Assembly: GCA_037447655.1 (NCBI GenBank)
Contig: JBBHKE010001722.1
Coordinates: 37,625-101,624, forward strand
DNA: 64,000 nt
Reading direction: 5' to 3'
Source of the DNA: Zygnema cylindricum
Taxonomy: Eukaryota; Streptophyta; Zygnematophyceae; Zygnematales; Zygnemataceae
The notes beneath the pieces are model-generated. The model saw only the letters and a program-made list of their open reading frames with translations, did not search any database and had not been told where the DNA came from. Positions 6,389-45,151 of the stretch are shown here, one piece after another. Made by a program: the position numbers and the translations under genes. Each line of letters starts with the position of its first letter. The stretch's first letter is position 1.

Positions 6389-6617
6389 TGAATGTGTCCA
6401 AATCTCATATTCTAACTTTGCATTCTGTGGTGGAACTGACCACACATAAAGTCTTATTTCACAGGGGTGAATCTATATTTGGGTTTTGATTGTCAACGGG
6501 TCAGTCATTTGGGTTTATATCAAGTTAGGAGTCGGCACTATCTAGATTAGCTTCTTTGGATCTGCTTACTCTGAGGGCCAATGGAGGTCTTAAAGTTTCA
6601 ACTGGGCCAATGGAGGT
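6389..6617 (+). repeat. Copia LTR 3'-end fragment inside the gypsy element
   Basis: Reverse-complement match to about the first 215 bases of the solo LTR at 47896 (shared blocks include GTGTCCAAATCTCATATTCT and GGCACTATCTAGATTAGCTT). It ends with a short duplication of GGCCAATGGAGGTCT (to about 6640). It interrupts gypsy pol between RT and integrase. Confidence 0.8.
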
Positions 6618-8209: not shown

Positions 8210-8633
8210 TAAACTGACCTAACGATAACCAACTAAGTCGTCAACCTTTCTTTTTCTTCCACCTTGTTTGTTGTTGTATTTATTCATTTACACTTTTTAT
8301 GTCTTATTACAGTCACGATGTTTTGTTATTATTTGGGTTTAAGTGGTGCACAGCTGATGATATTGCATGCATCTTCATGTTAGTTGACACATGCATGACA
8401 GTTGTCATCCTGTATCTTGTCGGACATTCTTATTGTAATATTTGGGTATTAGGATGGGGGGCCGCCACTCTAATTTGTGTTAGTGTCTTATTTTGGTTTT
8501 GCAAGACCGTACTTACTTACATTTCTCTTTCGCGTCGACCGTACATATTTACAGGGGCGTACGCCTCAACCGTACATATTTATTTTTCGCCGTTATTTCC
8601 AAAGACGGCGTATTGTCGTGTTCGCGTCAACCG
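8210..8633 (+). repeat. Gypsy 3' LTR, 5' portion
   Basis: Starts just after the polypurine tract. Bases 8223-8405 recur at about 10697-10876 (shared blocks TTCCACCTTGTTTGTTGTTG and GTCACGATGTTTTGTTATTA). The end is obscured by the copia solo LTR beginning at 8634. Confidence 0.65.
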
Positions 8634-13028: not shown

Positions 13029-13243
13029 CTATTGACCGCCGGAATGCTTTCCAACTCCTGGAGGATGTTTTCCGACTCCAGGAGTATGTTTTCCAACTCC
13101 AGGAGGATGTTTTCCAACTCCAGGAGGATGTTTTCCAACTCCAGGAGGATGTTTTCCAACTCCAGGAGGATGTTTTCCAGCTCCGGGAGGATGTTTTCCG
13201 ACACCCGGAGGGTGTTTCCCAACGCCTGGAGGATGTCGCCCTC
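13029..13243 (-). CDS. LRR gene candidate last exon: HPPGVGK heptapeptide repeats
   Basis: Acceptor TTTTCTACAG. The exon enters in phase 1, matching the Pro-rich exon's donor (joined: [14 protein letters not shown]). It encodes about nine copies of HPPGVGK and stops at TAG (13029-13031). Differences between the 21-bp units fall mostly at third codon positions of this frame (CCA/CCG/CCC/CCT, GGA/GGC/GGT, GTT/GTC, CAT/CAC), with only isolated replacements (Val to Ala, Pro to Thr), which suggests selection on the peptide. An AATAAA (13002-13007, minus strand) follows the stop by about 20 bp. Possibly a separate Pro/Gly-rich wall-protein gene if not part of the LRR gene. Confidence 0.52.
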
Positions 13244-15925
13244 CTGTAGAAAATTGTGAATAATGTTGAATAAATGAGTCATTTAAGAAATACAAAGCGT
13301 TCAAAAGATGGCATTCAAAAAGATAAAAAATAAAATACTTGGAGAAATAATTACCGCCATCTTTCCAAGGTAAAATGACCTGTAAAATGCCTTCTTCTTT
13401 ACCAAAAAGAATGAATGTACTGAACAAGCTTGTGAATGAAATGCAGTTTCTCGAATGATGATTTGCACCAATTTATTTAATCAAAATGCCCAACTAGAAA
13501 GGCAAATTGCACAAAGAGAATGTAACCATTTCAAAAAGAATTAATTCTGTAGGATCATACATAATAGACAGACCAACGGTATCCCAATAATACACTTTTT
13601 GCAAAAAGGATCGTATGTCTTTATTTTAATGAAGAATTGGAACTTGGTCTAAGTGCCTATTAGACATGGCCGTATTCGTTTTATTGGCAAATACACATTG
13701 CGTATAATTGGCACCGTAAAATCGTATTCAGCTTAGATTTGAAACACAACCAAAAACAAACCCACACGATGTATGCCGAGAAACACGTGGGCCGGAGGAA
13801 TTGTGTACACTCCCCTCCTGATTAGTATGGATCATCATAAGTATGGACCATGTCTAATTTTAGACATGGATTTTTGGCACCCAGCTAACAAATTTTACGG
13901 ATTACCATAATTGTTAACCTAAGGTGGCCAAGAGCACCTAGATCGGCACATAATTTTTGTGCGCAATGTAGCATAGACCATATATTGTCATTCACAATAC
14001 AGGATCATCTAAAATTGTTTAATTACGGTGATAGAACAGTGAACCTAAAAGGGACGTCTTGACACTAGAGTTATAAGTAAATGATCCGAAAAATCTTTTT
14101 CAGTATGAAAATCTGTCCGTGGTGTGCCTTTGAATAGCTTCCTCAAGATTGACAAGAAAAGTCTGAAATCTTGTGGCATGGTAGAAGACACACAAAAGTA
14201 TCGATTGCAGACTTTCGAACTGCCTAAACTAATATGTGGACAAAGAATTTGATTGCGTAAAAAAATGATATTTTGGCAAGTTCAAAATATACGAAATTGT
14301 GATCCGACGCAAAATAAAAACAACTGATAATTATTGAGAAATTCAATGGAGCTTCAAAGTCTAAACTAAAAAAACAAGAACAATTTTGGCATATTTGTAA
14401 TACTGGATTTGTTTTAGTGTGTGATGAGGTGGAAATCAAGCCCGATTTTTTTTTTCCTCACTTGCAGAAGTGAAACGTCATTTTGCGTGAAACATTTAAC
14501 CTTTTTTTAGTACCGCTTGGGGAACTCATGATAACACTTGAATTTGCAACCGTCAAAGTATATAATTTCGCATGTAACGACAAAGATTGTGGCTGTCCTA
14601 GACAAAAAGTTGGACAGCTACGAGTTCTTGAGTCAACGTTACGCCACAAATTCTAACTACCAAACCGTAAACGACAAGTTCTGTATTTTAGAGTGCTGAG
14701 TACTGGATTGACGTACGAGAAGTATCATTTTTTGGACTTTAGTGGTACAGAACTTAGAAGTTATTTGAAATGGCGCGTCGAATATTTTGGCCTTTTCAGT
14801 CGGATGGGTCAGTTTCCAACCCTAGGGTTAATAGTGAGAATTCGTTGGCCTACGAACTAGTTTGACATGTAAAATATACTTGTTGATTCATCTCCAAACA
14901 TATTTCTCACCAATGGATGTGGTGGTATTTTTTCTTTTAACATACTGACAAAAACGTCCACAAAAAAATACAAAAATAAGACAAAATTATCATTCTTTAA
15001 ATATTGTACAGAGACGACCTATAATATTTCCAAACCAATTTCCTGAGTAGCTAAAAACTTAGTATATACATATAAAAATTACATATAAAATATATTCATT
15101 ATATATGTCGGATATATAAATATACATCTATACACATACGTATATTAAAACATGTACTCAACAATCTGCTAGTCTTAGAAGATCATGACCTCCAAGGGAG
15201 CTTTAAACAAGAAAAAGTAAACACACAACTTATCGTCAAGTTCAACAGAAATCCTGATTTTGGCTGATGATTTTTTCTTAATCATCAACTGTGCATCTTT
15301 AGGGGTTCATCTGAGTGAAAAATTAACATTAACATTTATTTTTCTCTTTACCACTATTTTTGTGTATCATTAAGGTTTTGTTTTTGAAAGCACTCACTCA
15401 ATTTCCTGGGCGGTGGGGCTGATACTGAAACCCAAAAACCAAACACATCAAATAATCGATACATAAAGTGAGTTAAAATGGAAACATCGGAAAGCATCTT
15501 GATTCAAATCGAGAGACGTCAAATACAAAATCAAATTTTAAAATAAATTTCATCTCTACCACAACTTATTCTTTACTATGGTTTTGAACTAGCAACAAAC
15601 GATCTTGGAAAAAAAACTGATACTTAGGCGTTCTAACTCTCACATGGGAAACGATAGAAACGAGCAGAAAACAAGTCAAAATCAAAAGACCAACACGGCT
15701 CATTCTGATGACGTTTATTACTAGCTTAGCTACAAAATAAAAAGCCACTCTGTTCCCAACAAAAAACATCTATGATTTTACATTAATTAACATAACTCAC
15801 CTATTTTGTTACTGTTTTTGAATGCTTATCACAAATAACAATAGCAGAGCCCGGAGTTATTCATCAAAATGGGTTTTCTAACACATACATTTTGTGTCTA
15901 AAAACTGTTTCATTGTAGAAAAAAG

Positions 15926-15987
<62 letters not shown>

Positions 15988-18900
15988 CTTTGAAATTATA
16001 TTTTAAACATTGATTCTTTTTCAAACAACTTAATTTCATTAAAAAATGCTACTTTAAGCTAGAGGTACCATAAGTTTGTATTTGTGGTAGTTTGTTAAAA
16101 ATAGGTTTATTGTTAAACTTTCAATTTCATGCAAAGATTATACCCATTGAAAGAACACGCATGTTTAATCAGTTCACATGCAATTAACAACAAGAAAATT
16201 TATAATCTTTTATTATTTTCTCTATTTTCAGAATTGAGTGATCTACACAAAGTATAGACAGAAGTGCGAGCAAACCTGGAAGAGGTGTCGGAGAGACCGG
16301 AGGAGGACGCACTGGAGGCAAAGGAGGGGGCTGGACCACTGGAATGGAAGGATTTAGCCAAAAGCAAGGAGGAGGAATATTTAGGACCAACTCTGAGTTC
16401 TTATTTAACATTTTGTTCTTTCCAAAAGTTTAGGTTTAACATTATTTCTCTTCTATGAGTTTTTGTATCAACAAAATCTCTAATTCCAAACGATCCGCTT
16501 CTTATGCATTCACCAATATTGAAGTTCCAACCAACTCTGAGACATGTCTTTATTATTCTGCTATAAAAACAATTGACTTGTACGAATCCACACCTGAATG
16601 GCCCAAAAGCAGCCTGTAATTCTAAATTAAAAATTTACAACTGGAGTTCCAAAAACAACATCAAACTATCTTTGTTTCAGTCCTCATGTTCACTAATAAG
16701 TTTTTAAACATATTCAATTTAAATTAGGATCAAATATTTCATTCATATTTTTAAACTTTTACAAGTGTGATTTGCCATTTAAGTGGATACACATAACAAA
16801 TTCAATAAAACAAAATTGTGGCTTATAAATCCTTGTGCAATTATCATAATTAGAACTTTATTGGCCACAAATTACTGTCGTGCACAATACCACTATGAAT
16901 ATTTTATTGAGCATAAATGGTTACGTAAAAAAAAAAATTCAAAAAAGGGAGATCATTATGGAGAAGACATTTGTTATTGGTGCATATCTTGTCAAAAGAG
17001 GTCATACATTTGCAAATGAACTTGCTATCCTGATTCGTGTATCCTTCATTGCATGCACATGATGTCCCGTTTGTGCCATTGGAACAAATACCACCTCCCC
17101 CACAAGGGCCTCCTAGTTGGGTTGCGTCGCAAAACGCGTCACACTCGCTTTTACTTCGTTGATCACTTGATGCACACCCGGTTGGGAGGTTTGGGCCGAA
17201 TAGGCAATTGGTGGATAAGCCGTCACATTCTAGGCGCCCGTTGACTCTGGCAACCGGTCCGGTGATGTAGTTGTGATCAATGAAACTGCAAATACGGTTT
17301 GCCATCGTAAAAGAAAATTACGCGACAAGCCATCAATATCCATTATAACACGTCTAAAAAAATAAACATGTTTAGAAGGCATCAAGCTTGATTCATGTAA
17401 AGAAGACAAACAAAAGGTGCGGACAACAAACCTTTACGTAATTTTATTTTTTGTTTTGCTTATTAAAATATATTTCTACACATGAATTACTCATTTTTTA
17501 TTTTTAGCGATCATTACTTTGATTATAATAATTGTTTATTATTATTATGAGTAGTTTTGTCATGAATCATTTTTTATTATTTATTTTTATTGTTAGTTGG
17601 CATTATAGAGATTATTATTGATTAATTCTAATAATTACTGTTCTTACCTAGTCTATGTATTGAGTATAAAATATTATTATTATTTTTAACTCTAAATATA
17701 TTTCTTAATTGTTGCGTTCAGTGACTATTATTATTATAATAGCAATTATACATATTATTATTTATTCATTTCTATTTTTACTATTATATATATAGCTATC
17801 ATTAATTATTATTGAATATAAGCTACAGGTGTCATAAATTAATTTTATTGTTTGTCCGCAGATAAAATTACTATTACTATTATTACAGATTATTATTATT
17901 GAAATTTACTATTACAGATTATTTTTATTTGTTTGGATTACTAACAAACGTTAGTCGTTATTGTTATAATTTATATTTTTTTTAAATAAACATGAGTATT
18001 AAATATTATTATTTTACAAGCATTTATTATTAATAAGTATTTATTAATAATTATTATGATCGTTAGCATATATTTTATCAAAAAGTACTAATTTTTTTTA
18101 GTAATTGCTATTTTTAATGATTAATATATTTTAAATATTTTTAGTAATTGCTATTTTTAGTGATTAATATTTTTTGTGATCTTCATTCTTAGGTTCTCGT
18201 TATTTCTCTGTTAAAATTTTATCAGTAGTGACAAGTTTATCAGTAGTGTCACGTGTCTTACAAGAGTTGCAGGGATGTGATTTGACCAATGGACGATGGA
18301 ATGCTTCCAGTCAACTGGTTGTAAGATAGACTTCTGTGGCGTAGAACATTCACAAACCCCCAACACTCCCAAAAGTCTCCTATTTAGCCGGGCTAGCTTT
18401 TAAGCTCGCATGAGTGATACAAAAAAAACCCTAAAAACCCTTTGAAAAAATCATCATAAAAACTCTTTCCCTTCACCTTTTTCCTCTTCCTTCCTCTACC
18501 CTGTAGGAGCACGCTATAGCCTTTCATCTCAACCGGCCGGACTGATTCCTATTGTTGTTGAAATTATTTTTTCTTTTTTTCTTATTGTCGTTATATCATT
18601 ATATGTTTTTGGAATTGATTTTTGTCATTAATAATATAATTTACATATACGCTAATTATTTTAACAGTTTTTATTATTCTTTGTTTGTTTTCTAATTATT
18701 GAATTTTTTCATTACTTTTCTTGTTATATATTATGTTTATTATTTTTGATTACCATTATCAACAGTTGTCATTATTTTTAATCCTATCATGAATTATATT
18801 TCAATAAATTTTAATCACTGTTAATTACTACTACAATCATTATTACTGTATATTAGGATCACAATTATTATTATCAGTTTTATTATTATTATTATTATCA

Positions 18901-21900
18901 TTAACTGTTGTTATCATTGATTTAAACTAACTCCAACTATGATTATTATTCACTAATATATCTATGAACCATAAAACATTATTATCACATTTAACTATTG
19001 TTTTTTATTTTAGTAATTTCCATAATCATCAGTTTATAAAGCTATAAGTTAATATGATTATTCATCATTAATCCAAACAGTTGTTATAAACAACATTTAT
19101 TATTATACGTAATTATTTTATTGATCTTTTAAAACACTGGCCAAACAATTATTACTTTAGATTTTTATTAGCATTATTAGCTAGAGTTATACTAATAAGT
19201 ACTAATACCACTAACAATTTATTAGATATATTATTAAATGTAATTATATGATTAAATATATATAATGTTGTTTATTAATAGTACCAATTACGATGATTTT
19301 GTTAATATATATTTCTTTTATTATGTACAATTTATTATTTGTTATTAAATATTTATTACTTCTTTTCATTTTGTTTTTTTAAACTGTTTTAATTATTTAT
19401 CAAATATGTCTAAACATTTATTACATATTATTAATTGTTTCGATAAATTATAAATTATTTGCCATATAATATTTTTTTGTTTTTGTAATACCAATCATTT
19501 CTTATACAATAAATTATACATATCATATTCTATCACTTATCTATCACATTATAAGAATTTTTCAATTTGTATTAGGAATTCTACATTGAATATTATTTAT
19601 TGTACTTAATTCATTTTTTATTATTTACTATTTAATATATCATGTTTGTTTACTGTTTACTGTCTACTATTTACTGTTTTCTTCTTACTGTTTACTACTT
19701 ACTAAAAACTAAATACTATTTACCATTTACTTTTCCAATTTACGATTTACTTTTCCTATTAAACATTTACTTTTCCTATTTGCTATTTATTGTTTACTGG
19801 TTACTATAAACTATTTACAATTTATTATTTTCCTTTTTATTATTCTTTATTTATTAATTATTCAATAATTATGTATCATTTAGTAGAATTTATTTTGATT
19901 ATTTTTTATTGTTTCGAATACTTATTGTTATTGAGTGTTATTACTACATATTTCTTGTTTTTATTCTAACCATCTATTCTCAATAACATATAATGATAAT
20001 ATAATATTATTTAATGTTAATTAATATTATGATTACTTTCTGATATATATTGACTATTTATGATTATTATCAATTGCTATGAATCTATATTAGTATTCAT
20101 CATTGTTTCTAATAAAAAATAGTTATTATTGTTTTTTTTTTATTACTGATTAAAATTACTTATTACGATTTTTATTTATATTTTAATGCTTTATTAAATA
20201 ATAAATACTATTCATAACAAATATTTTTATAATCATCTATATTGATTTATGACTAATTAATGATATTGATAGCTCTTACTAATAATTGCAATTGTTAAAT
20301 GTTACAATGAATAAATATTGTTAAATGATACTATATATTGTTATTTTTACTTACTACAATTGAGTGCAAATTTAACTTGTTACTATTCATTATTATTATG
20401 ATATGTTATTATTTAGCTTAATCTCTCCCCTCTCTCCCTCTCTCCCTCTCTCTCCCCCCCTCTCCCTCCCTCTCCTTTCCTCTCCCTAATTTTTATTTCC
20501 CTCCCTCTCCCTCCTTTTTCTCTCTCTCCCTCTCCCTTCTTTCCTCCATCTCCCTTCCCTCCACCTCTTTCCCTTCCTCCCTCCCTATGTTCCTCCCTTC
20601 CCCTCCCCCTCCCCCTCCACCTCGCCCTCGCCCTCGCCCTCGCCCTCGCCCTCGCCCTCGCCCTCGCCCTCGCCCTCGCCCTCGCCCTCGCCCTCGCCCT
20701 CTCCCTCTCCCTCTCCCTCTCCCCCTCCCTCTCCCTCTCCCTCTCCCTCTCCCTCTTTCTCTCTCTCTCCCTCTCATCTCCATCTCACACTCCGCCTCCA
20801 CCTCCCCTCCCTTTCTCCCTCTCTCTCACCCTTCCTTCCCTCTCTCCGACCTCCTCCACCCCTTTCTCCCTCCCCTACCCCCTCCTCATCCCCCACTCCC
20901 CCTCACCCTCCCCCACGCCCTCGCCTCTCCTTGCCACTCTCACTCCCTCTCTCCCACCCCATTCCCTTTTTCCCTCATCTTCCCTTACCCACTCCCCCTC
21001 CCACACCCCCTCCCCCTCCCCCTCTCCCTCTCCCTCTCCCTCTCCCTTTCCCTCGTCGTCTCCCTCTCTCTCTGTTTCTCTATTGGCCTCTCGCCATCCC
21101 CCCTCCCTCCCCCTATCCTTCTCTCCCGTAAATAATTATTATTAGCGTTATTATTATTGTTATCAATTAATGTTACTGATAAATATTAGTTTTTTTTGTT
21201 AAGACTTGTTATTTCATAAGTATAAATATTAAATATAATCGTTAACTTTTCACTTTTTTAATTTACCATTATTACTTTTCGATCATTATTAGCCTCATTG
21301 ACATAATTAATTGTTATATAAATATTACAATGTGTAGTTATTATTGGTAATTATTGTTATATATGGTTTAAACAATAATATATATATATATTTACGTACA
21401 TATATGTCTGTAAGTTATTCTTGTGTCAAATAGTAACACATTTTTTTAGTAATTAATGTTTTTAATAATATTATTTTTTGTAATTTTTTTTTCTTAGTAC
21501 TCATTACATATTTATTAAAAGTTTATCATCAGTATCACGTGTCTTACAAGTATTGGAGGGATGTGAGTTGACCGATGGACGATGGAATGATTCCACTCAA
21601 CTGGTTGTTAGGTAGATCTCTGTGGCATCGAACATTCACAACCCACCAACACCCACCCCCCCAAACGGTCTTGTAATTAGCCAAGCTAGCTTTCAAACAC
21701 CCAATGGGACCCCTATAATAAACCCTCAAACCACACTTGAAAAAATTACTTTAAGATGGTCCTTCCTCCAAACCCTCAAACCCCCTTTGAAAAAATTACT
21801 TTAAGATGTTCCTTCCTCCACCATTTTCTCCCACCCTCTCTGTATGCTCTAGAAGCACGCTACCTCAGCAAGCCGGAATGGTTATTTTGGTTACTACAAT

Positions 21901-24900
21901 CATGACCATTATTCTTTTTATTGCCATTACATCAATAGATTTTATTGATGTTTGGTTTTTACAGTACTAATATCATAAAAATATTTTGTTGTTATTTTTG
22001 TTATTTTTATATTTGTTTATATTAATTATTTTCATTATTTTTCTTACTATAAGTTATTATTGCTGTTTTTAATTATCATAATTATCAACAATAAGTATTG
22101 CGTATTATTATTGATAGTAGTATCATAATTAATTTTTTATTATTTATTATTATTTTTTATCGGTATTATACATATTATAATTGAATAAAATTGATTCACA
22201 TTCGCATTCATAATAGCATTTACATTCCAATTCACATTCACCTCCACATTCACAGTCAAATTCACATTCACACTCGCATTCACATTCGCATTCACAATAG
22301 AATTCACAATCACATTCACAATCGCATGCACATTCGCATTCACATTCGCGTTCACATCCATATCCACATTCACACTCACACTCACATTCAAAGTCACATT
22401 CTCAGTCACATTCACACTCGCATTCACAATCGCATTCACATCCACATTCACATCCATACCCGCATTCACATTCACATTCACACTCACACTCACATTCACA
22501 CTCACACTAAAATTCAAAGTCACATTCACATTCACATTCATAATCGCATTCACATTCGCATTCACAATCGCATTCACATTCGCATTCACAATCGCATTCA
22601 CATTCGCATTCACATTTGCATTCACAATCGTAATCACAATCGCAATCAAAATCGCATTCACATCGCATTCACATTCGCATCCACATCCATATCAACATTC
22701 ACACTCACACTCACATTCACACTCTCGCACTCAGCCATTTACAGACACATTCACATCCACATTCTAAACCACATTCACATCCACATTCACATTCACATTC
22801 ACATCCACATTCACATTCGCATTCACAATCGCAATCACATTTGCATTCACATTCACATCCACATCCATATTCACATTCTTACTCACACTCACACTCACAC
22901 TCGCACACTCACATTAACAGTAACAATCACACTCGCATTCACAATGGCATTCACAATCGCTTTCACAGTAGCATTCACATTCACTCTCACACTCACTCTC
23001 CCTCGTCGTCTTCCTCTCTCTCTGTTGGCCTCCCACCGTACATATATATGTACGTAATTTTTGTATCAAATAGTAATAAGAAAATTAGTAATATTTTCTT
23101 AGTACTCATTATATATTTATTAAAAGTTTATCATCAGTGTCACGTGTCTTACAAGTAAAGGAAGAATGTGGGTTGACCGATAGACGATGGAATACTTCCA
23201 CTCAACTGGTTGTTAACGAGATCTCTGTGGCATCGAACATTCACAACCTACCAACACCCACCCCCTCAAACGTTCTCGTTAGCCAAGTTAGCTTTCAATC
23301 ACCCAATGAGAACCCTTTTTGAAAAAATCACTTTAAGAAATTCCTTCCTCCACCATTTTCTCCCTCCCTCAATGTATGCTCTAGAAGCACCCTCAGCAAG
23401 CCGGAATGGTTATTATAGTTACTAAAATCATGACCATTTTTCTTTTTATTGCCGTTATATCAATAAACTTTGTTGGTATCTGTTTTATTTACTAAGTTGT
23501 TATTGCTATATTTAATCATCATTATTATTAATTATGAGTATTGCGTATTATTATTGATAGTAGTATCATCAATAATTTTTTTGTTGTTTATTATTATTTT
23601 TAATTGGTATTGTATATATTATAATTGAATAAAATTTATTCAAATCATTTTTGTTATTACCTAATCTATGCATTAAATAAAAATTATTATTACTATTTTT
23701 AGCTGTAAATATTTTTATTTATTATTACGATTAATGATTATTATTATTATTATAAATAGTAATTTTACTTATTCTTATTTATTAATATATTTTTTACTTT
23801 TATTTATATAGCTATTATGAATTTTAATGATAATCAACTACTGGAGTCACTTACAAATGTTATTATTTGTTGTTATCTTAAATTAGTATAACTATAATTA
23901 CGGATTATAACTATTGAAAATTTACTATTACTAATTATTACTATTAATGTGGAATTCTAATTAAAAGTTCAACGTTATTGTCAAAATGATTATTTATATA
24001 AAATACTCATGGCTAATAAATAAAATTAATTATTTCTAGAAATTGAACTTATATGGTCGCAATCAATATACACCTACACTTATTATCGTTATTATTAATA
24101 CTAATAATCATGATTTTATCAATTATTTTTATTAATATTTATTATTAATATTATGTATTGTTATTCTTATTATTCTTATCTACATTATTATCATTTATCA
24201 CTATCATTGTTTGCTATTATTCATTATTCATTACATTTTTTATCATGAAAGATTATCATTGTTATTCATTAATTTTAACATTATTATTATATATTAATAA
24301 TATATTTTATGATACTCTTTATTATTGCAAAAACATTCATTATTGTTACTAATCATTATTATTAATAGAAAATTACTTCATTGTTTGTTATCGTTAAAAT
24401 AATTTTTTTATTATTTTTCAGATGTATAGTTAGTATTATTAGTATATCTATTTACTATTAAAACGGAACCTGTTTATTACTTTTAATGTTATTATTATTA
24501 CACAATGATATTATTATTTACTGCAATCATTATTATGATTATTTTCTATTTATGTTATTCTTCATTAGAAGCCTTATTTCTAATTATTTCGATTTGTATT
24601 TCTAGGTTATTTGTCTTATTCATAGGATGCTTATTAATGTTAAGGCAACTTTTTATTATTTTTATAATATTTTTTTATTAATAAACATTATTATTAGCAA
24701 ACTGAGTTTTTTTTTAAAATGATGATTTTTTTATTATTAAGATGGATAAGTAGTACATTTAAATTTATATTTATATTAAACTGTATTTTCACATCCATAT
24801 TCATATTCATGTTCAAATTCATATTCAAATTCACAATCACATTCACATTGACATTCACATTCACTCTCACATTCACATTCACATTCACACTCACATTCAC

Positions 24901-27900: not shown

Positions 27901-30900
27901 CGTTTACTTTTATCACTTTTTATTTTTATTTATTATTTTCATGACGTTCTTTACCATAAATTACTATTGTTATTCTTAATCATCAATATTAGTAATCATT
28001 ATTTTTTTTTATTATTTAAAATTATTTTTACAAAACTTGATAATTAACTGTTAAGCATTGTTACACGTGTTTATTTCCGTAGCTACCTATTATTACAATC
28101 AATGAGTAAAACTATAGAAAGTCAATATTTTCTATTATTGTTTTAGTTATTTATCATTATTTTATTTTATTATTATTTTTTATCGTTCTTATTATTTTTC
28201 AGTATTTCTAGATCATTATAAAAGTTAAATTATTATAATATTTTGAATATCATAATTATTATCATTCAAGCTTACAATTAACATTATAATTTTTAATTCT
28301 TATTATGATTATCTTTATTATTGTTAAACTATCAATATCTATAATTATTCAGTGTTTGATATTGTTATTATTTTAGTATTACTATTATTGTTACTCATTA
28401 TTATTAATTATTGAAACATGATCATTTTAATTATTGTTATTATTTTGATTATTGCTGATATTATTATTGCTATTATAGATTGATAACATTACTATTATTA
28501 GGACATAAATTCATTAATATTCGGATGCTTGTTTTACAAAAACAACTCAATAATAAGATTACTATTAGGATGGGTACATTCCATTATAAGGATGGATAAG
28601 CAATAAACATTATTAGGATTTATGATTATATACCCCTCCCCCCCCCTCTACCTTCCCTCTACTCTTTTTCACACTTTCTCACTTTTTTCCCCTCTACTTT
28701 CCTCCTTTCTCTTTCTACCTCCCAATTACTCTCTTACCTTTTCCATTATTGCCACCTCCCCCTCCCCCTCCCCCTCCCCCTCCCCCTCTCTGCCACTCAC
28801 CATCTCCCTCTCTCTCCCGCCTACCCTCTATCCCCCCCTCCCTCTTTTTCCATCCTTCTCTCTCTCCATCTCCCTCTCCATCTCCCTCTCCCTCTCACTC
28901 TCCCACTCCCTTTATCTCTCCCTCTTCCTTGATGGATCTCAAGAAAATGCAGAGTGGAAAAGAGAGCCGAAGCATTCATAAAATATCACAAGAGAGAGAG
29001 CATCCCACGGAAGCCAATATATTCCATGGGAAACATTTCTTCACATAAGATTAACTCTTCCTCTCTTTCTACACCTCAACATATAGAACTTTCAAACGAA
29101 ACATCACTACTTCAAACTAAACGAAACATCAAACATAAAGTGCGCATTACGAGCCTACCAATCAAATCGCGTCAAAACGCTAGAGACCTAAGTACCAAAG
29201 TACTACTCAAATGTATGATTCTAACGTATACAAATACTTGACCGTCGCCAAACAGAATCTACGCGAGACTAAAAATCAACTTAAGAAATAAAACAACAAA
29301 CCAAACCACACGATTGAACTAAAAAAAAATTAGACAGCGAGCCAGTCACGCGACGGTCGATTACAAATTTGATTCTAAAAATCCTCCTCTCAAATTTGTA
29401 ATCATTACACCAAACCAAATTTAGGTCTCCCCCCTGCAACACTTTATAGGTCGCAGCTTTCGTGAGCATATCCGCGGCTTCCACCAAAGTAGACACGTAC
29501 AAAAATTGGATCTCTTTCGCAACGACCAAATCTCTTACAAAGTGCCACTAAATCTTGATGTGTTTTGTCCTATTGTGAAACACAGGATCTTTCACCCAAG
29601 CCATCAAACTCATACTGTCAGGAAAGATTTTCAAACAACCATTCAACAATCGAAATTCCCAATTCTCCAAACATCTTCATAATCCGAATAAACTCTTTAG
29701 ATGTATGACACATTGCTATACACTCGACTTCGGTTGAACTAAGTGCGACGGTCAGATGTAGTCGTGAACTCCAAAAAACTGACGTGTTGCCAAAAACAAA
29801 GGCAAAATCGGACATAGACTTCCCCGTATCGAAGTCGCCGCCCCAATTTGCGTCACAAAATCCAACGCACTCCAACGACGCTGTCCATATCGAAACAACA
29901 ATCCAATTTTAATTGTACCTGCAAGATATCGAAATATTCTCTTCACGGGCTCCCAATGAAATTTTTTAGACGCTTGACGAAATCGGCTCACGACAAAAAC
30001 GGCGGCCGAGATGGTAGGCAGCGTGCAACACTTAAATACATCGAACTTCCAATTGCGTCAGAATAAGGCACGTCGATGGTCTCCTCCTCAAATTTGCGAT
30101 ATTGTGCTTTCAAGTCAAGCGGTGTCAAAACTGGCTTAGAATCCAGCATAGCAAATCAAGTTAGTACTTCTTTACAATACTGTGCTTTCAATAATTTAAT
30201 TTCATCGTTATCAAATCTTACAACTTCCACTCCAAAAATATATCGTACATCTCTCAAATCTGTCACTTTAAAATGTAAACGCAAGTACAACTTTAATTCC
30301 TCGATTCGCGCCAACCTGTTAAAAATCATTTAGAAATCGTCCACGTAGACAAAAAAAACAATTTGGTCTTTCTTTTCACCTTTCATGTAAACGCTTGAGT
30401 CAGAAACTGTACAAATGACTTCAAACTCAGTGAAGACTTTGTATAATCGTAAATACCAAGTCCTAGGCACATGCTTGAGTCCAAACAAAGACTTTCGCAG
30501 CCGCCATTCCTTTCTCTCTTTCGAAATCACTCCCTCCGGAACCTTCATATAAACTTTCTCCTCTAAATCACCATTTAGGAATGTTATTTGCACGTCGATT
30601 TTGTGCACGTGCTTACTATCGGCAGCGGCAATAGCAATAATCTTATTCAAAGAATCAAACTTCACTAGTGCATATGTTTTAAGATAATCAATTCTCTCCC
30701 TTTGTTGAAATCCTTTACATACTCAACAAGCCTTATGATCACAATTTCCCTCGATGTCACAGTTTTTGTCCTAAAAATCCATTTGGTATCAATAGCATTT
30801 TTCCCTTTTGATAGACTTACCTTCTCAAAAGTGCGATTATCAATTATATAATGAAGCTCCTTCTCCCATGCTGGTTTCCAATGATTTTCCCAATCACACG

Positions 30901-33900
30901 ATTTGCGAGCTTTGGTTTATGATTGTGGACCACCTGACAGATTCTCCAATAAGCCGTTGAAATAAAATAATGCGAATTTTCCACATTTCCTTTTCGATCA
31001 AATGAGAAACGAGCTGGATTTTTCCCCTTATTCTCTCGCATGCTCCTCCGCTGCTCAATTTTTTATTTTTTTTTCGGTTGCTTTTCAATTATACTCGGTC
31101 TACTAGACTTAGAAGCCTAAGATTTCCGAGTGTTCAAAAACATTTTGGAATTTTCACATCGATTTGAATCTACTACAATGTCATCCAAATTGAATTTCCC
31201 TTTCCCCCTCTTAACATTGGAGGTGGATTCTGGCTCAATTTCCGAATCCGAAACTTCAATGTCGAGAATTTCTCCAATTTTAAACTACTAATTGAATTCA
31301 AGATTGGAAGTACGCTTTGCCAAACGAGATATTCTAGATAAAGGGTATTCATGAAAGTCCATATTTCGAGATTCCTCAATAACATTGCGAATCGGATCAC
31401 CAACCCAATAAAGTCTCCCTTTGAAGCTATAACCAGTAAATTAACCACTCCAACTCCGAGATGCAAATTTTCCTTTTCTTTTTTGAGATAGAATATAAAC
31501 CATTCCGAAACTGAAGTAAGTTTCCCAATTACAAATGTAATTTACAGTTAGAATTGCATCTCCCCACAAATAAATGCTTCGGCCGGATCCGTGTACCATA
31601 GAGAGCACCATTTCTTGAAGCGTGATTCTTCTTCTACCAATGCCATTGAACTTCGGTGGGTAAGATGCGGTGTATTGATGTGAAATTCCCCACTCCTTAC
31701 AATATGCATCAAAAATTATGAATTCCCCCCTGATATCTGACAGAATAGATTTTAAGTTTTTTTCACATTGCCTTTCGGGCCACCACATGCTACTCATGGA
31801 AACGTTCAAATGAATCAGATTTTTTTTTGAGTAACATTACCCATGCGAAGCGTGAGAAGTCATCCACCGCCACTTTAATTCTTATTTCCACCAATTGTTT
31901 TTGGTTTGATGTCTCCACATAAATCAATATGTACCAATTCAAACGGATGTTTCGATCGATAGATCGGATTTTGAACCAAATGTGGCTTTCGGATTTGTCT
32001 CCCGATACTACACCACTCACATTAATTAATCTTTTCCACCGATGCCAAATCCAATCCTCCCACACTTCCGTGTTTTATTTTTTTTCGTAGGCTTCTCTCA
32101 GATGTGTGGCACATCCAATAATGCTAGAGAGTAAGATCTCCCTTTAACTCTGAAATTCGCAAAATCATGTCGTCAAAAATTGAGGGGGATTTTGGCCGGC
32201 GCTATAGTAGGTGGCTATACATAACATCTGTCACTTCTCTTTTTTCAATTTGTACGTCGTCAGATTGGACAATTTTTATTATAGAATCTCCAAAAGCCTG
32301 TGGGACACTTAAGAGATTCACTAAACCGCTACGAATAAAAAGTACATTAATCAATTAGGTTGGCATCACTTTTTCAAATCCGCATGAGTCCAGAATAGGT
32401 AGATCTAAAGTACATCTATACGTACAATACCAACTGTACCTATAGAAATCACTTGTCCACTTCCAATAATGATTGGCTTTGGGATCATAAGTTGATGCAT
32501 ATTGTTAAAAAGTGACGCCTTTGTACACACGCGATACGAAGCGCCTGAATTAGTAATCCACTTTTCTTTCCGGTTGCGTAACACTTGTCAAAAAATCTAT
32601 CGACAAGTTAAAGAACTCCAATGTAAGCGCTCTTTCGCTTCTTTCAAAATGGCCATCCACCATAAAATGGCCTCCTAGTCCACCATGGCGACCACCACGA
32701 CCGCCGCAACCACCTTTAGGGCCACCACCACGACCACCATTTCGGCGGCCTCCTCATCTACCACTATCGCATCTATTTTCATTTTTTGAGTAGCATTGAG
32801 GGCTTATATGGCCCCACTTCCCGCAATAATGACATTGACGTTCTTTATCCAGATAAGATGCGGCCATGTGGCCATATTTTCCGCACTAAAAGAGAGCAAT
32901 AATGGTTAGATCTGAATATGTGGGCTGGGAAGGAGGTTTCTCGACCCTTTTTTATCCTCCTCCCCTTCTTTTTCTCGGATTTCCTCCTCTCTTTCCACCT
33001 TTTCCCCAAAGATAATTTAGATCTGCGGTTTTCATTGACGTAGAATTAAGGGTACCGGCCGGTGGAGTTTTCCTCGACAAACTTGGCTAATTTCCCTCGG
33101 TCGATTTGAGGAAAGTGATGATGTAATCCATGGTAGGAAATTCCCTCGATAAGAGAATGTCCCTCAAATGTATCATTTTCTCCAGTAAGGCATTGAAGTA
33201 AGGCATTGATGAAAACAGATGCCAAATCATTCTCTTCTATAAATTTTTCGTTATTTGCAAGTGGCTCAATAATAATACTGAATCTTTTCAAGGCCACATC
33301 GATAGTCTCGCTCGGCTTCACTTTGAAAGATGTATAATCCGTATAAATGCGTTGGCCTTTATTTTGTTGGCGCTTCTCAAAATAATTCTCAAAGGCCATC
33401 CAACAATCATGAGCATATTTTTGAGTGAGGAAGAAATCATGAATCAAAATATTACATGATTGGAATAAGCTGCCTATAGCGGAGAGAATTTCCTTCATCC
33501 ATACACGTCTAACGGTCCGATCCGAGATCGACATATTCTTTTCCCCATTTACCACTTTCTAAAGTCGTTTGAGAATAAATTGACCTTTAACGTATTTCTT
33601 CCACGATTGATAAATCGTTCTATTAAAGAGGACGATCTTTCCGGGCATAGTTTGGACTTGTTCCTCCCCCTCACTTCACTTATCGAGATAGGAATCATCA
33701 ACAATGGAAAGTTTCCCTTTCCGAATCCACCCTTTCCTCTCCTCCTCATTATCAGCACCTCCTTCCGAATCACCAATGCTTAGATCCGGATGTGGATCTA
33801 CGAAGAGGGCTTTGCGATTTCCCTCGGAGATCCGCTGGTCCATATAACGACAAAAGCCCTCCATCAACTTTTGAAGGCAATCTTCCATGATATCAACCAC

Positions 33901-36900
33901 CTTTTTTTTTTCCCCTCTTTTTGACCAAATGGATCTGCCGATAAAGTTTCCTCAAAAGATGTTGCAGTGAACTTAGACGGGGCTTCTACTTTTTCTTCTT
34001 TTTCTTTTTTTTCCGATCCGATAAAGATTCAAATTTAGCCGGAGGTTCCGGATCCCGGAGACGAGGAATCCGAAAAGGGTATTATTTTCTCTTTCCCCCC
34101 ATGGCGGCCAAACTAGCCACCTTTTTCCCCTCACTTGAGCACACAAGGCTCTGATACCACTTGGTAGATCTCAAATAAAATGCAAAGTGCAAAAGACAGC
34201 GGAAGCATTCATAAAACATCAGAAGAGAGAGAGCATTTCACGGAAGCCAATATATTCCATGGGAAACTTTTCTTCACAAAAGATTAACTCTCCCTCTCTT
34301 TCTACGCCTCAATATATAGAACTTTTAAACAAAACGTCACTACTTCAAACTAAACGAAACATCAAACATAAACTGTGCATTACGCGCCTACCAATCAAAT
34401 CGCGCCAAAACGCTAAAGACCAAAGTACCAAAGTACTAATCAAAAGTGTGCTTTTGACGGACACAAGGACTTGACCCTCGCCAAACAGGATCTACGCGAG
34501 ACCAAACATCTACATAAGAATAAAATAACAAACCAAACTGCACACTTGAACTAAAACCAACCTAGACGGCCGCGCGTTTGTGACACAACGGGCGATTACA
34601 ATTTGATTCTAACATTCCTTTCTCTCTTTTTCTCCCTCTCCCTCTCCCTCGATACCCTTTTCCAACTTCCTTTTTTACCTCTTTTTCTTTTTTTTGTTCT
34701 TTTTAAATATTTATCATTATTGTTATTTTTTTTCATTGTTATGTTTATTATTATTGTATGTTTGCTAAACTTATGGTGTCATGTGTCTTACAAGCCTGCG
34801 AGAGATGTGAGTTGACCGATGGACGATGGAATGCTTCCACTCAATTGGTTGCTTTTAAGCCATCTGTGGCATCGAACATTCACACCCCACCATCAGTCAC
34901 ACCCCCAAAAGGTCTCCTAGTTAGTATCTTTGACACGTTCTACATTTAAAAAAAACGAGGGCGAATTCCTAATAAAGACATATAGTGGATTTTTTTTCCT
35001 CTATCACACTCCTTTTATTGGATTCAACATCATTTTGGTGTAATCCATAGGTTGGACTTTTGGAAACACAATATTTGTACAAAACCGTATTCTTTGTCAA
35101 ACCCCTATGGGCGCCCCTTTTTATTCACCTTCTAAAAAAAAATACGAAATAAAAAACTCTTAAAAATGAAAAAATTAAACGGAGAAGCATAATTACAACA
35201 TACATTGTTTTGCCACCAAGTGGCTTTTGTCATAATCCCACCCTCCCACCTTTTTCCTCCATGAGAAAAACATAATAATTTGTAAAATCAATGGAAAAAG
35301 CACCCCACAAGAAAAATAGGTAAAATTATCAATGAATTTGGTGTTTTCATCCCACACGGATTTCCATCTTGACGTCTCTACCTCCCCCTCCCCCTCAACC
35401 CCCCACCCCACCCCACCCCACCCCACCCCAACCTACCCCACCCCACACACCGCTTTTTTCCTATCGTGAAATATAAACTTCCAAAATTGATTCTTTTTAA
35501 ATAAACAAGAAAGCTAGAATCTCCATACACAATAGAAGACTTCAAAAAAAGAAATCCTCAGATATTGACAAAAAACATCAAAAGGTAAAACTTCTTTTGT
35601 TCCATTTTTTACCATTTACAAATAATAACATCCCAACCCCCCCTCCACCTCCAATTTGGTGACCAAAATTAAAATACGAAATAGAGAAACTAATGTAAAA
35701 TGAAATCTTTGGTCATTCCTTCTAATGCAATTATATGTTTTACAAACCTGATTTTCTTTCTAGTTTTACGCATCAAATGCATCCCCTATTCAAGTTTTCA
35801 CTCACAAGAATAGCAATCGTGTGAGGTTGCCTATCTCCGCCGCAATGCTCCCTCCTAGTCCTAAGTCGTTTAAACTTCTGCACCCCCCACTTGAAGGACT
35901 TTAAACGAAATCCTTTCATCCTTCTCCCCCCTCTCCGACCATCTTGTCTCATCGAACTCGTGGGCGCATTGTGGCGGAGCTTGCACATATCCTATGAATC
36001 AGAATTAATTGTGAAACTCAGGGCGAGATTGCGAGATTCCGTATGCAATTCAGCGGAGAATCGTGACAATTCAGCGGAGAATCGTGACAATTCAGAGGAG
36101 AATCATGACAATTCAGCGGAGAATCGTGACAATTCAGAGGAGAATCATGACAATTCAGCGGAGAATCATGACAATTCAGCGGAGAATCGTGACAATTCAG
36201 AGGAGAATCGTGACAATTCAGAGGAGAATCATGACAATTCAGCGGAGAATCATGACAATTCAGAGGAGAATCATGACAATTCAGCGGAGAATCGTGACAA
36301 TTCAGAGGAGAATCGTGACAATTCAGCGGAGAATCGTGACAATTCAGAGGAGAATCGTGACAATTCAGAGGAGAATCATGACAATTCAGCGGAGAATCGT
36401 GACAATTCAGCGGAGAATCATGACAATTCAGCGGAGAATCATGACAATTCAGCGGAGAATCATGACAATTCAGCGGAGAATCATGACAATTCAGCGGAGA
36501 ATCATGACAATTCAGAGGAGAATCATGACAATTCAGCGGAGAATCATGACAATTCAGCGGAGAATCATGACAATTCAGCGGAGAATCATGACAATTCAAC
36601 GGAGAATCATGACAATTCAGCGGAGAATCATGACAATTCAGCGGAGAATCATGACAATTCAGCGGAGAATCATGACAATTCAGCGGAGAATCATGACAAT
36701 TCAGCGGAGAATCATGACAATTCAGCGGAGAATCATGACAATTCAGCGGAGAATCATGACAATTCAGCGGAGAATCATGACAGCAGAATTTGCGCGCATC
36801 GATAATGACTCACGCCCAATACACGCGACCGGAGTCATCGCAGTCGAAATAATATGCACCGCATATGATCGCGGGAAATTTCTCCTTGTTCACGACAGCC

Positions 36901-37146
36901 GCCTTCACCGCCTCCAGAGCCGACTCTGCAGCCGCAGGATCGACAGAAAAGAGTCAAAGGATCAAACTAAAGATATTTTTCGCACATTTGAAGATATGTG
37001 CTGCACAAAAGAAAATAGAAAAAGAAGGACAGCGGAGGGGAAAACTCACTGTCTGGTTCCGCCATGACTCCAGTATAATCTCCCGTGACGAGTGCCACGT
37101 GGCACACCAACATAAGCACTGTCGCGATGACCATGGTGGGCGCCAT
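13029..37146 (-). CDS. LRR / EGF-like / Pro-rich surface protein, multi-exon gene
   Basis: A split gene of about 24 kb deduced from exon phase and splice sites. In transcript order: signal-peptide exon (37146-37050), LRR N-cap exon (36925-36814), seven 72-bp LRR exons (35877-35806, 34863-34792, 27595-27524, 26625-26554, 23224-23153, 21619-21548, 18333-18262) and a C-cap/Cys-rich EGF-like exon (17285-17008). Probable Pro-rich exons follow (16390-16276, 13243-13029). Exon 1 ends in phase 1, the next eight junctions are phase 2, and no stop occurs in any of the ten well-supported exons. All donors are GTAAGA, GTGAGT or GTATGA. The protein (about 330 residues before the Pro-rich part) would be secreted or displayed on the cell surface. 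LRR plus Pro-rich tail resembles LRR-extensins; a transmembrane alternative exists. No kinase motif was found. The 3' half of the model is less sure than the LRR part. Confidence 0.75.
13244..15643 (-). other. AT-rich intron-like DNA
   Basis: No confident exon. A 63-codon minus-strand ORF (14458-14649) and an overlapping plus-strand frame around 14474-14655 are open, but neither is joined to usable splice phases or shows a known motif. Confidence 0.4.
15644..15729 (-). CDS. LRR gene candidate alternative exon: transmembrane helix
   Basis: Acceptor TTTTATTTTGTAG, donor GTGAGA. It enters in phase 1, so it fits after the Pro-rich exon. Reads [12 protein letters not shown] then [15 protein letters not shown], a hydrophobic helix after a basic segment. 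If used, it would anchor the protein in the membrane. The same ORF could instead be a signal peptide starting at MSRVGLL of a separate small gene. A following candidate exon (about 15411-15437) would end the frame after a few residues. Confidence 0.28.
15928..15985. repeat. (TA)n microsatellite
   Basis: About 28 uninterrupted TA dinucleotides. Confidence 0.97.
16276..16390 (-). CDS. LRR gene candidate exon: Pro-rich linker
   Basis: Encodes [17 protein letters not shown], then [19 protein letters not shown], a Pro-rich stretch of the kind that follows the LRRs in extensin-like wall proteins. The donor CCAG/GTTTGC leaves phase 1. The acceptor could be ...CTCAGAG (phase 0) or ...CTCAG (phase 1). 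The complementary strand also has an open Gly-rich frame here ([12 protein letters not shown]), so strand assignment rests on agreement with neighbouring exons. Confidence 0.42.
17008..17285 (-). CDS. LRR gene exon 10: C-cap and Cys-rich EGF-like module
   Basis: The acceptor GTATTTGCAG joins exon 9 in phase 2. The exon opens with a last half-LRR ([11 protein letters not shown]), then [13 protein letters not shown], a Cys-rich cap with SECDAFC, and an EGF-like module: [16 protein letters not shown], then SCACNEGY, closing in FICK. Ten cysteines and two NGT N-glycosylation sequons fit an extracellular domain. The likely donor GTATGA follows TGCAAAT and leaves phase 1. Direct joining to the Pro-rich exon at its phase-1 acceptor would create a stop (T plus AG), so an intermediate exon or another acceptor is needed. 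Confidence 0.72.
17310..20415. repeat. TTA/ATT-rich low-complexity DNA around exon 9
   Basis: Long A+T stretch built from ATT, TTA and TATT words with short runs of (ATT)n, for example near 18880-18900. It contains exon 9 at 18262-18333 and its conserved flanks (18248-18545). The rest has no gene signal. Confidence 0.7.
18262..18333 (-). CDS. LRR gene exon 9: LRR 7 (72 bp)
   Basis: Acceptor TACGCCACAG, donor GTAAGA, phase 2 to phase 2. Encodes [18 protein letters not shown] then TSLQL, with the final codon completed by the next exon (TT plus T gives Phe). Confidence 0.9.
20418..21128 (+). repeat. Pyrimidine hexamer array, (CTCCCT)n and (CTCGCC)n
   Basis: C/T-only DNA about 700 bp long. Core 20618-20700 is a near-perfect (CTCGCC)n run, giving way to (CTCCCT)n at 20701-20760 and degenerate variants after. 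The long PR- and LP-repeat ORFs here are repeat artefacts. It lies in the intron between LRR exons 8 and 9. Confidence 0.93.
21548..21619 (-). CDS. LRR gene exon 8: LRR 6 (72 bp)
   Basis: Acceptor GATGCCACAG, donor GTAAGA, phase 2 to phase 2. Encodes [18 protein letters not shown] then TSLQY plus split Leu. Confidence 0.92.
22187..22995 (+). repeat. (TTCACA)n hexanucleotide array
   Basis: About 800 bp of TTCACA units with frequent TTCGCA and AATCGCA variants. Because six is a multiple of three, all frames stay open (HIHI, VNVN), which explains the false ORFs. Intron between LRR exons 7 and 8. Confidence 0.95.
23153..23224 (-). CDS. LRR gene exon 7: LRR 5 (72 bp)
   Basis: Acceptor GATGCCACAG, donor GTAAGA, phase 2 to phase 2. 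Encodes [18 protein letters not shown] then TFFLY plus split Leu. The Pro after GQ and the Phe pair are unusual for an LRR, but length, phase and splice sites are kept. Confidence 0.88.
23430..24780. repeat. ATT-rich low-complexity DNA
   Basis: A+T DNA dominated by TTATTA and ATTATT words; no exon found. Confidence 0.6.
24783..26450 (+). repeat. (TTCACA)n array grading into TTCGCA and TACACA variants
   Basis: About 1.7 kb. TTCACA units dominate to about 25600, mixed with TTCGCA to 25990. A short block of CTTCCC units follows (26050-26135), then TACACA/TACACG variants to 26450. The intron between LRR exons 6 and 7 holds it. ORFs of 100-178 codons on both strands are artefacts. Confidence 0.95.
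26554..26625 (-). CDS. LRR gene exon 6: LRR 4 (72 bp)
   Basis: Acceptor GATGCCACAG, donor GTAAGA, phase 2 to phase 2. Encodes [18 protein letters not shown] then TSLQY plus split Leu, the closest match to the plant LRR consensus LxLxxNxLxGxIPxxIGxL. Confidence 0.92.
26925..27340 (+). repeat. Pyrimidine-rich array, CTCTCC variants
   Basis: C/T-only DNA with (CTCTCC)n, (CTCTCT)n and CCCTCC blocks, in the intron between LRR exons 5 and 6. It ends CCTCGATACCCTTTT, a sequence also found at 34642-34660. Confidence 0.92.
27524..27595 (-). CDS. LRR gene exon 5: LRR 3 (72 bp)
   Basis: Acceptor CACAG, donor GTAAGA, phase 2 to phase 2. Encodes [18 protein letters not shown] then TSLST plus split Leu. 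The intron bases before the acceptor differ slightly from the other copies (GGATTCCACAG). Confidence 0.9.
27840..28620. repeat. ATT-rich low-complexity DNA
   Basis: A+T DNA with many ATTATT runs; nothing coding seen. Confidence 0.6.
28625..28924 (+). repeat. Pyrimidine-rich array split by a copia insertion
   Basis: C/T-rich DNA including (CTCCCC)n at 28757-28787. The array stops at the copia TSD (28925-28929) and resumes at 34615 (TTCCTTTCTCTC), showing it was one tract before insertion. Confidence 0.9.
28930..29380 (-). repeat. 3' LTR of the intronic copia element
   Basis: Homologous to 34162-34614 throughout, with many substitutions. Its outer-sense start is degraded (TTTTAGAATC instead of TGTTAGAATC). 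Flanked by TTCCT. Confidence 0.9.
29382..29391 (-). promoter_or_regulatory. Polypurine tract of the intronic copia element
   Basis: GAGAGGAGGA on the minus strand, immediately inside the 3' LTR. Confidence 0.7.
29618..30665 (-). pseudogene. Copia reverse transcriptase and RNase H, degraded
   Basis: RT pieces: [33 protein letters not shown] and FFVYVDDF with an intact YVDD. RNase H pieces: [11 protein letters not shown] and [11 protein letters not shown]. These blocks are diagnostic of copia pol; frameshifts and stops separate them. Confidence 0.88.
31173..32080 (-). pseudogene. Copia integrase, degraded
   Basis: Core block [19 protein letters not shown] (normally DDxSR with a Tyr or Trp strand) is followed by [11 protein letters not shown], where copia integrases have S-D-N/R-G-x-E-F, and by a weak third block. 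Several frameshifts. Confidence 0.8.
32530..33920 (-). pseudogene. Copia gag and protease, degraded
   Basis: Gag (33046-33900) contains [17 protein letters not shown] and a Gly-Arg-rich segment (about 32650-32760). A zinc knuckle [14 protein letters not shown] (C-x2-C-x4-H-x4-C) is intact at about 32790-32830; a second knuckle is broken. The protease block reads WITNSGAS, so the catalytic Asp of DSG is Asn. Frames are interrupted in several places. Confidence 0.8.
34147..34159 (-). promoter_or_regulatory. Primer-binding site, tRNA-iMet 3' end
   Basis: TGGTATCAGAGCC on the minus strand, two bases inside the 5' LTR, is complementary to the 3' end of plant initiator tRNA-Met (GGCUCUGAUACCA). 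Confidence 0.93.
34162..34614 (-). repeat. 5' LTR of the intronic copia element
   Basis: On the element strand it starts TGTTAGAATCAAA and ends GATCTACCA, next to the primer-binding site. Flanked outside by TTCCT. Confidence 0.93.
34615..34665 (+). repeat. Resumption of the pyrimidine array after the insertion
   Basis: TTCCTTTCTCTC continues the array cut at 28929. It shares CCTCGATACCCTTTT with the array ending near 27340. Confidence 0.8.
34792..34863 (-). CDS. LRR gene exon 4: LRR 2 (72 bp)
   Basis: Acceptor GATGCCACAG, donor GTAAGA, phase 2 to phase 2. Encodes [18 protein letters not shown] then TSLAG plus the split Leu. The flanking intron sequence is shared with exons 5-9. The complete copia element at 28930-34614 lies in the intron that follows. 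Confidence 0.9.
35397..35453 (+). repeat. (CCCCA)n microsatellite
   Basis: About ten CCCCA pentamers, with the G-rich strand on minus, in the intron between LRR exons 3 and 4. Confidence 0.9.
35806..35877 (-). CDS. LRR gene exon 3: LRR 1 (72 bp)
   Basis: Acceptor GGTGCAG, donor GTGAGT, phase 2 at both ends. It encodes [18 protein letters not shown] then TRLLF, with the terminal Leu split across the intron. This is a typical first plant LRR. It differs more than the other six from the family consensus, as expected of the oldest or outermost unit. Confidence 0.88.
36046..36780 (+). repeat. 21-bp minisatellite, 35 units, in LRR-gene intron 2
   Basis: Unit CAATTCAGCGGAGAATCATGA, 735 bp in total. 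Only two positions vary often (CGG/AGG and CAT/CGT), plus one ACGG. Because 21 is a multiple of three and the unit lacks stops, ORFs of 193-334 codons open on both strands. It lies between the N-cap exon and LRR 1, so translation is not expected. Confidence 0.95.
36814..36925 (-). CDS. LRR gene exon 2: LRR N-terminal cap
   Basis: The acceptor is CTGCAG after a pyrimidine-rich run; the donor is GTGAGT. The 112 bp read [16 protein letters not shown], then [18 protein letters not shown]. The Cys pair followed by a G-x-V-x-W strand is how plant LRR ectodomains open (N-cap). It enters in phase 1 and leaves in phase 2. The last two bases (GC) plus the first base of exon 3 (A) make Ala, giving [16 protein letters not shown], a normal cap-to-LRR1 transition. 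Confidence 0.75.
37050..37146 (-). CDS. LRR gene exon 1: signal peptide
   Basis: The ATG at 37146 is the first in its frame and sits in CCCATGG. The 32 codons begin [19 protein letters not shown], a short N terminus with a hydrophobic core, followed by VTGDYTG, which fits signal-peptidase cleavage. The exon ends CCAGACA before GTGAGT, leaving phase 1. The next exon starts in the matching phase. Confidence 0.75.
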
Positions 37147-45003: not shown

Positions 45004-45151
45004 CCTTTGCAGTTTCCGAAAGAATATCCCTCGTTGCCGGAGGTGTCTATGTAGTTTTCGACTATATCTTTGTTGTGTCCGAATGTATCACTGTTTTTTG
45101 CTGTCGCCTAGATTTGCGCCATTTCGGAACAAAAACCTCCTCGTTTATTTG

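Follow-up and report, generated by a model that had tools for sequence, protein, structure and literature searches.

A 64,000-nucleotide stretch of DNA from the streptophyte alga Zygnema cylindricum (GenBank assembly GCA_037447655.1, contig JBBHKE010001722.1, positions 37,625 to 101,624; hereafter the window, with positions counted from its first base) carries on its minus strand a series of 72-bp exons that each encode one leucine-rich repeat (LRR). This locus is very probably a real gene. As read from the sequence, the split gene probably specifies a secreted or extracellular protein with single-exon LRRs, duplicated repeat units, a diversified concave face, and a Cys-rich/EGF-like C-cap. 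The LRR array would have grown first, and selection would then have kept the fold scaffold while diversifying the concave residues.

Exon structure of the LRR gene

Ten minus-strand exons splice in frame and without a stop into 330 residues comprising a signal peptide, an LRR N-cap, seven 72-bp LRR exons, and a Cys-rich part, as a preliminary description made from the letters alone had proposed. Exon 1 (37050 to 37146) holds the ATG and the signal peptide and leaves in phase 1 through a GTGAGT donor. Signal peptides were judged by an in-house hydropathy filter, which 7 of the 2314 ATGs in the window pass, at five distinct places; exon 1 contributes two of the seven. Exon 2 (36814 to 36925), entered in phase 1 and left in phase 2, encodes the N-cap. 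The LRR exons follow as X1 (35806 to 35877), X2 (34792 to 34863), X3 (27524 to 27595), X4 (26554 to 26625), X5 (23153 to 23224; the most irregular copy), X6 (21548 to 21619), and X7 (18262 to 18333). All seven are exactly 72 bp long, with a CAG acceptor and phase 2 at both ends; the donor is GTAAGA in six and GTGAGT in X1. Exon 10 (17008 to 17285), entered in phase 2, encodes a last partial LRR, the C-cap, and an EGF-like spacing of Cys residues.

The repeat has the form LxxLxLxxNxLxGxIPxxIGxLtx, a 24-residue plant-type LRR, and the phase-2 exons split the first Leu of its xxLxLxx stretch. The residue at the phase-2 junctions is Leu in six of eight cases, the outer two being Ala and Phe. Within the window, 392 segments on both strands consist of 72 bases between AG and GT; six of them read through in phase 2 and show L..N.L.G.IP, a combination that never occurred in 100 dinucleotide shuffles of the window (maximum 0). 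X1 (35877) fails this strict motif. A scan for a longer LRR motif lying entirely within a single 72-bp exon returned nothing, since such a motif runs across the boundary between exons. In X2 to X7, the six that resemble one another, the coding frame holds no stop in 138 codons, and the other two frames hold 4 in 144 and 6 in 138. Across the ten exons the coding frame never stays open for more than 137 codons at a time, which bears out the earlier expectation that an open reading frame (ORF) caller would see only fragments; the locus is an example of a gene missed by ORF-based annotation.

Pfam profiles recognize the spliced protein as LRR_1 (2.9e-24) and LRR_8 (4.8e-19), and in the PDB it matches best with the ectodomains of MIK2, GSO1, and FLS2. 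The alignments to PEPR1, TDR, and HPCA1 (PDB) begin at residues 51 to 54 within exon 2 and cross the junction into the LRR exons; the C-x6-C of the N-cap falls in this aligned stretch. General homology was also considered as a guide to orthology. With 6003 proteins at E ≤ 0.001 (7961 scored), those among the 120 matches listed were LRR-domain proteins, which are useless for that purpose.

Probable growth of the array by exon-plus-intron units

X2 to X7 share not only the exon but also the flanking intron on both sides, and X1 does not; no similarity of its flanks to those of the other LRR exons was found. The shared flanks therefore point to growth of the array by duplication of an exon-plus-intron unit, and we infer that the six exons descend from one exon copied along with its flanking intron. 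Searched at E ≤ 1 with a profile built on the unit core, the 64-kb window yields the six places of X2 to X7, one further piece at 21926-21778, and nothing else. The additional piece seems to be an upstream portion of the X6 unit, displaced by local duplication; a 50-bp duplication lies at 21720-21820. A 21-base stretch preceding the repeated exon has no exact match in viral contigs.

The introns between units hold long simple repeats, some of them of the same kind in adjacent units. Degenerate TTCACA-type hexanucleotide arrays occupy 22194-22996 (133 copies) and 24788-26449 (276 copies), and GA-rich arrays lie at 20423-21073 and 26924-27328. Both kinds of array are candidate sites of unequal crossing-over. 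Such crossing-over between intronic simple repeats most likely drove the tandem duplication of the units, although the exchange itself is deduced from the arrangement.

Each unit starts and ends within one codon, in the same phase, and copies can therefore be gained, lost, or skipped without a shift of frame. This property follows from the phases; splicing might exploit it. The six units still display how an LRR array could grow, with exon and intron copied together, the phase preserving the frame, and selection subsequently acting on one face. Were the same arrangement true of relatives, gain and loss of repeats would be directly countable at the locus.

Opposite selection on the concave face and the framework

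The concave binding face of known LRR proteins is lined by the residues of xxLxLxx that lie exposed. Each of X2 to X7 has 23 whole codons, which were numbered 0 to 22 and divided into five concave codons (0, 2, 3, 21, and 22) and the other 18, taken as framework; this split follows the known fold rule but was applied after the exon translations had been viewed. Among the copies within this gene, the scaffold is under purifying selection, and change at the exposed xxLxLxx residues has outpaced the synonymous rate.

More than half of the pairwise amino acid differences (57 of 93) fall in the five concave codons, with an exact permutation P of 5.9e-5 computed from every one of the 33649 possible sets of five codons. 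Nucleotide diversity is 0.49 in the concave codons, 0.10 in the framework, and 0.13 in the adjacent 24-bp acceptor flank; in the introns it is 0.20 in the 20 columns past the exon, 0.24 at 24 to 75 columns upstream, and 0.43-0.44 at greater distances on either side. The proportions of nonsynonymous and synonymous differences per site (pN/pS) are 0.575/0.158 for the concave codons and 0.063/0.223 for the framework. Counted by parsimony on a tree, with changes rounded to whole numbers for the tests, concave codons underwent 25.5 nonsynonymous changes at 12.1 sites, above the synonymous rate of 10.5 changes at 16.7 sites (p 0.0002), and framework codons underwent 8 nonsynonymous changes at 40.2 sites, below it (p 0.018). 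Gap-free intron columns on the same tree changed at about the synonymous rate (10 changes in 24, 25 in 35, and 6 in 15 columns).

These tests were repeated in 14 runs, which combined two equally short trees with the full set and with each copy left out in turn. The concave p ranged from 0.0002 to 0.031 and the framework p from 0.006 to 0.15, the latter being below 0.05 in 12 of the 14 runs. A codon-position test on whole exons shows no third-position excess, and the signal emerges only after the concave codons are set apart from the framework. With all codons pooled, pN and pS hardly differ (0.181/0.211), and the case for selection therefore rests on this separation.

A Cys-rich/EGF-like C-terminal exon

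Exon 10 spaces its Cys residues as C-x8-C-x5-C-x8-C-x-C-x12-C. We take this spacing, together with the terminal C-x-C-x2-G-Y-x8-C, to be the pattern of an EGF-like domain. The six-Cys pattern ending in C-x-C-x2-G-Y-x8-C has five matches in the window, and the other four lie in simple repeats. Among solved structures the Cys-rich part has a weak match to a Notch EGF domain (0.15); against a set of 240 proteins, 120 of them copia matches, the best E was likewise 0.15. Folded alone from its single sequence, the exon reached a mean predicted local distance difference test score (pLDDT) of 41.9, too poor for comparison.

LRRs of land-plant LRR-extensins (LRX) lie on one exon. The spliced protein also matches LRX2 (PDB 6qxp), with a best stretch that runs from the last LRR into the Cys region, and it resembles plant LRX proteins in having a secreted LRR domain followed by a Cys-rich part. 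Membership in the LRX family was considered on this ground; the match is lost once the LRRs are removed, the Cys region alone has no LRX match at E ≤ 10, and the relation stays a lead. A further difference from LRX proteins is that the Pro-rich exons found here may belong to another gene.

The 3' end of the locus

Exon 10 has two possible exits, a splice at 17007 (GTATGA, phase 1) or read-through to a TAA at 16906-16904. The read-through end (16904 to 17007) adds 34 residues, among them three further Cys, and its stop overlaps an AATAAA at 16908. Several minus-strand features lie beyond it: a possible Pro-rich exon (16276 to 16338; phase 1-1, weak donor GTTTGC), which only a one-gene model would use; a signal-peptide exon (15577 to 15703) of a rival second gene, with a phase-1 donor GTAAAG or GTTTGT at 15600; a small exon encoding SAPPPRKL (15398 to 15424; phase 1-1, donor GTGAGT), compatible with either model; and a terminal exon (13029 to 13243) with nine HPPGVGK-type heptads, seven of them identical in protein, ending in a TAG at 13031-13029. 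A second AATAAA stands at 13007, 22 bases past the end of this TAG, against a background of one per 474 bases on the minus strand. In the nine 21-bp units of the terminal exon, 11 of the 13 minority bases occupy the third position of the HPPGVGK frame; the exon is therefore coding. Its frame can be reached from the ATG at 15703 in four variants of 105 to 122 residues, using the donors GTTTGT or GTAAAG.

We prefer two genes, with an LRR gene that would probably extend from 37146 to about 16904, about 20 kb. It is more likely that the Pro/His-rich 13-kb exon is part of a second gene, for a small secreted protein starting at 15703, because there is a second signal peptide at this place and both AATAAA signals are well placed. 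The description as one 24-kb gene reaching 13029 thus holds for the LRR core as far as exon 10, and its Pro-rich 3' part is doubtful.

A single 24-kb gene remains the leading alternative, if a doubtful one. Exon 10 would be spliced at 17007 to the Pro-rich exons and on to HPPGVGK, giving a 431-residue LRR-EGF-Pro-rich wall protein with an LRR-extensin-like layout; its likelihood shares the LRR core with that of the preferred explanation, and the two are not exclusive. An LRR domain followed by a Pro-rich part is the layout of LRX proteins, LRX2 is among the PDB matches with its best stretch extending into the Cys region, and all three 3' exons are in phase 1 at their joins, with a continuous frame to the TAG. 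Moreover, the best-looking donor in the exon starting at 15703, GTGAGA after 60 nt, is in phase 0 and misses the HPPGVGK frame, so that the second gene needs the weaker phase-1 donors. Set against this are the signal-peptide-like ATG at 15703 between the two parts (such ATGs are rare, at 7 of 2314), the access it gives to the HPPGVGK exon in frame, and the AATAAA that ends each of the two open frames, at 16908 and 13007. The Pro-rich exon at 16338 also has a weak donor, and the LRX likeness does not extend to the Cys region by itself. LRX proteins carry Ser-Hyp extensin repeats behind the Cys hinge; no Ser-Pro(4) repeats occur in the Pro-rich exons as translated.

Interpretation and rival explanations

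A secreted LRR protein with a diversified face would probably bind an extracellular protein or peptide that itself varies; such a role is suggested because it is the presumed binding face that diversified. The product is likely a receptor-like protein or decoy, presumably devoid of a kinase of its own, that would engage such an extracellular partner.

Several observations weigh against the preferred reading, that of a real split gene for a secreted LRR protein with an EGF-like end. At the caps, LRRNT_2 is missing from the Pfam matches of the N-cap at E ≤ 1, and the EGF matches of exon 10 stay under the Pfam curated cut-offs (EGF_Teneurin 0.041-0.14; EGF 0.36). The Cys-rich exon alone had no relatives in the protein collection (four candidates, none at E ≤ 10) in a search whose candidates were confined to about 237 to 754 residues, a range that places long receptor kinases outside its scope; nor was a relative encoded in eight short-pattern stretches of viral contigs or in 56 of prokaryote contigs. 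As for selection, the sample is small (six copies of 23 codons), and the concave diversity of 0.49 barely exceeds that of the outer intron, where the alignment is less sure. Without X2 the tests weaken, the concave p lying at 0.0099-0.031 and the framework p at 0.068-0.15. X5 has irregular framework residues (QPTFFLY), the all-codon pN and pS hardly differ, and the introns hold hexanucleotide repeats of up to 1.7 kb and a copia element, as those of a dying gene could.

These last points, with a framework test at or above 0.05 in 2 of the 14 runs, speak for an old LRR gene that is dying or dead, dismantled by repeats, with exons that have yet to gain stops. We consider this improbable. Framework codons are conserved relative to synonymous change in the full set and in most runs, and all ten exons retain GT-AG splice sites and remain stop-free. 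In addition, the 14.5% divergence between the long terminal repeats (LTRs) of the copia element suggests that the exons have stayed open long after its insertion.

The weakest rival, a receptor-kinase ectodomain whose transmembrane and kinase exons lie beyond the 64-kb window or inside it past recognition, would fit the nearest solved relatives, which are receptor-kinase ectodomains, and the fact that plant-type LRRs are usually coupled to kinases, but it is very unlikely, as a six-frame motif scan of the window (rather than a profile scan) found no form of HRDxKxxN, DFG, or GTxGYxxPE, and the frame past exon 10 either stops within 104 bases or enters Pro-rich exons that end in a stop.

Relation to known LRR exon arrays

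The layout of single-LRR, 72-bp, phase-2 exons is already known. LRR receptor kinases of rice have 72-nt exons with one LRR each, their phase-2 introns interrupt xxLxLxx within its first Leu, and growth of their arrays by exon duplication has been proposed (PMC3050792). The Zygnema locus is alike in these respects and differs in that a kinase was not found within the window, the array leads into a Cys-rich/EGF-like C-cap, six units are alike in both exon and intron, and the introns, of 0.9 to 7.2 kb, contain long simple repeats.

Brown-algal LRR-ROC-COR (ROCO) genes share the exon length, the phase, and the single LRR per exon, and they combine exon shuffling with positively selected concave sites (PMC11378527), so that concave-face diversification is also common to both. 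ROCO proteins are LRR-GTPases, whereas the LRRs described here follow a signal peptide and lead into exon 10, which is Cys-rich/EGF-like instead; ROC-COR was sought only with Pfam on selected frames. Tandem LRR exons of equal length with phase-2 introns and an interlocked frame also occur in Tetrahymena (PMC6564038), where the exons measure 90 bp instead of 72, the LRR unit is longer, and the genes number in the thousands.

What is particular to the present locus is the combination, in a single gene, of six alignable exon-plus-intron units, a contrast between concave face and framework, and a secreted LRR-EGF-like protein whose Cys-rich part had no relative in the searches made. The titles among the literature matches listed include none on a secreted LRR/EGF-like/Pro-rich gene in a streptophyte alga, an observation that supports no wider claim; for LRR exon shuffling, diversifying selection on the concave face, and streptophytes, the brown-algal ROCO paper was the only one retrieved. 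A more far-reaching reading, which we regard as unlikely, makes this a green-lineage locus for variable secreted LRR-EGF binders, generated by in-phase unit duplication, by selection that diversifies the concave face, and by in-frame use or skipping of any of the seven LRR exons, and hence an independent counterpart of brown-algal ROCO. If the pattern were true of relatives, the locus would allow a test of whether a plant-type extracellular LRR protein diversifies like the brown-algal immune candidates.

Retroelements and other features of the window

The intron after exon 2 contains a tandem repeat of 35 copies of 21 bp (36046 to 36782; 96% matches). It is traversed by open frames of 350 and 326 codons on the plus strand and of 263 on the minus strand. 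The intron between X2 and X3 contains the decayed copia-type LTR element, on the minus strand (28930 to 34614), whose LTRs show 85.5% identity across 469 bp; its ends and a 5-bp direct repeat, AGGAA, were set by eye, and a gag match (PF14223) lies inside it, within 33049-33558.

Outside the LRR locus, an open frame on the plus strand (7955-8212) encodes a PHD finger (4.1e-8) near a sub-cut-off RVT_1 match at 5987-6391; it may be a fragment of a gene or else belong to an element. A same-strand chain of open frames at 44454-47223 (minus strand; 217, 150, 162, and 257 codons), lacks any Pfam match that passes its cut-off and may represent an element in decay or a gene not yet recognised. The ten exons of the LRR gene had been set apart from every retroelement frame in the window by their lack of stops, a distinction that does not stand, since a copia reverse-transcriptase frame at 51654-53453 (minus strand; RVT_2 4.7e-80) is open over 599 codons, which leaves the window with one or more intact retroelement frames. 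Among the 120 matches listed for this frame, a set that would suit a green plant or streptophyte alga, 20 bear an organism or species prefix, namely, 18 from land plants, one from a bacterial metagenome-assembled genome, and PITA_30085, which we take to be Pinus; identities range from 36 to 45%.

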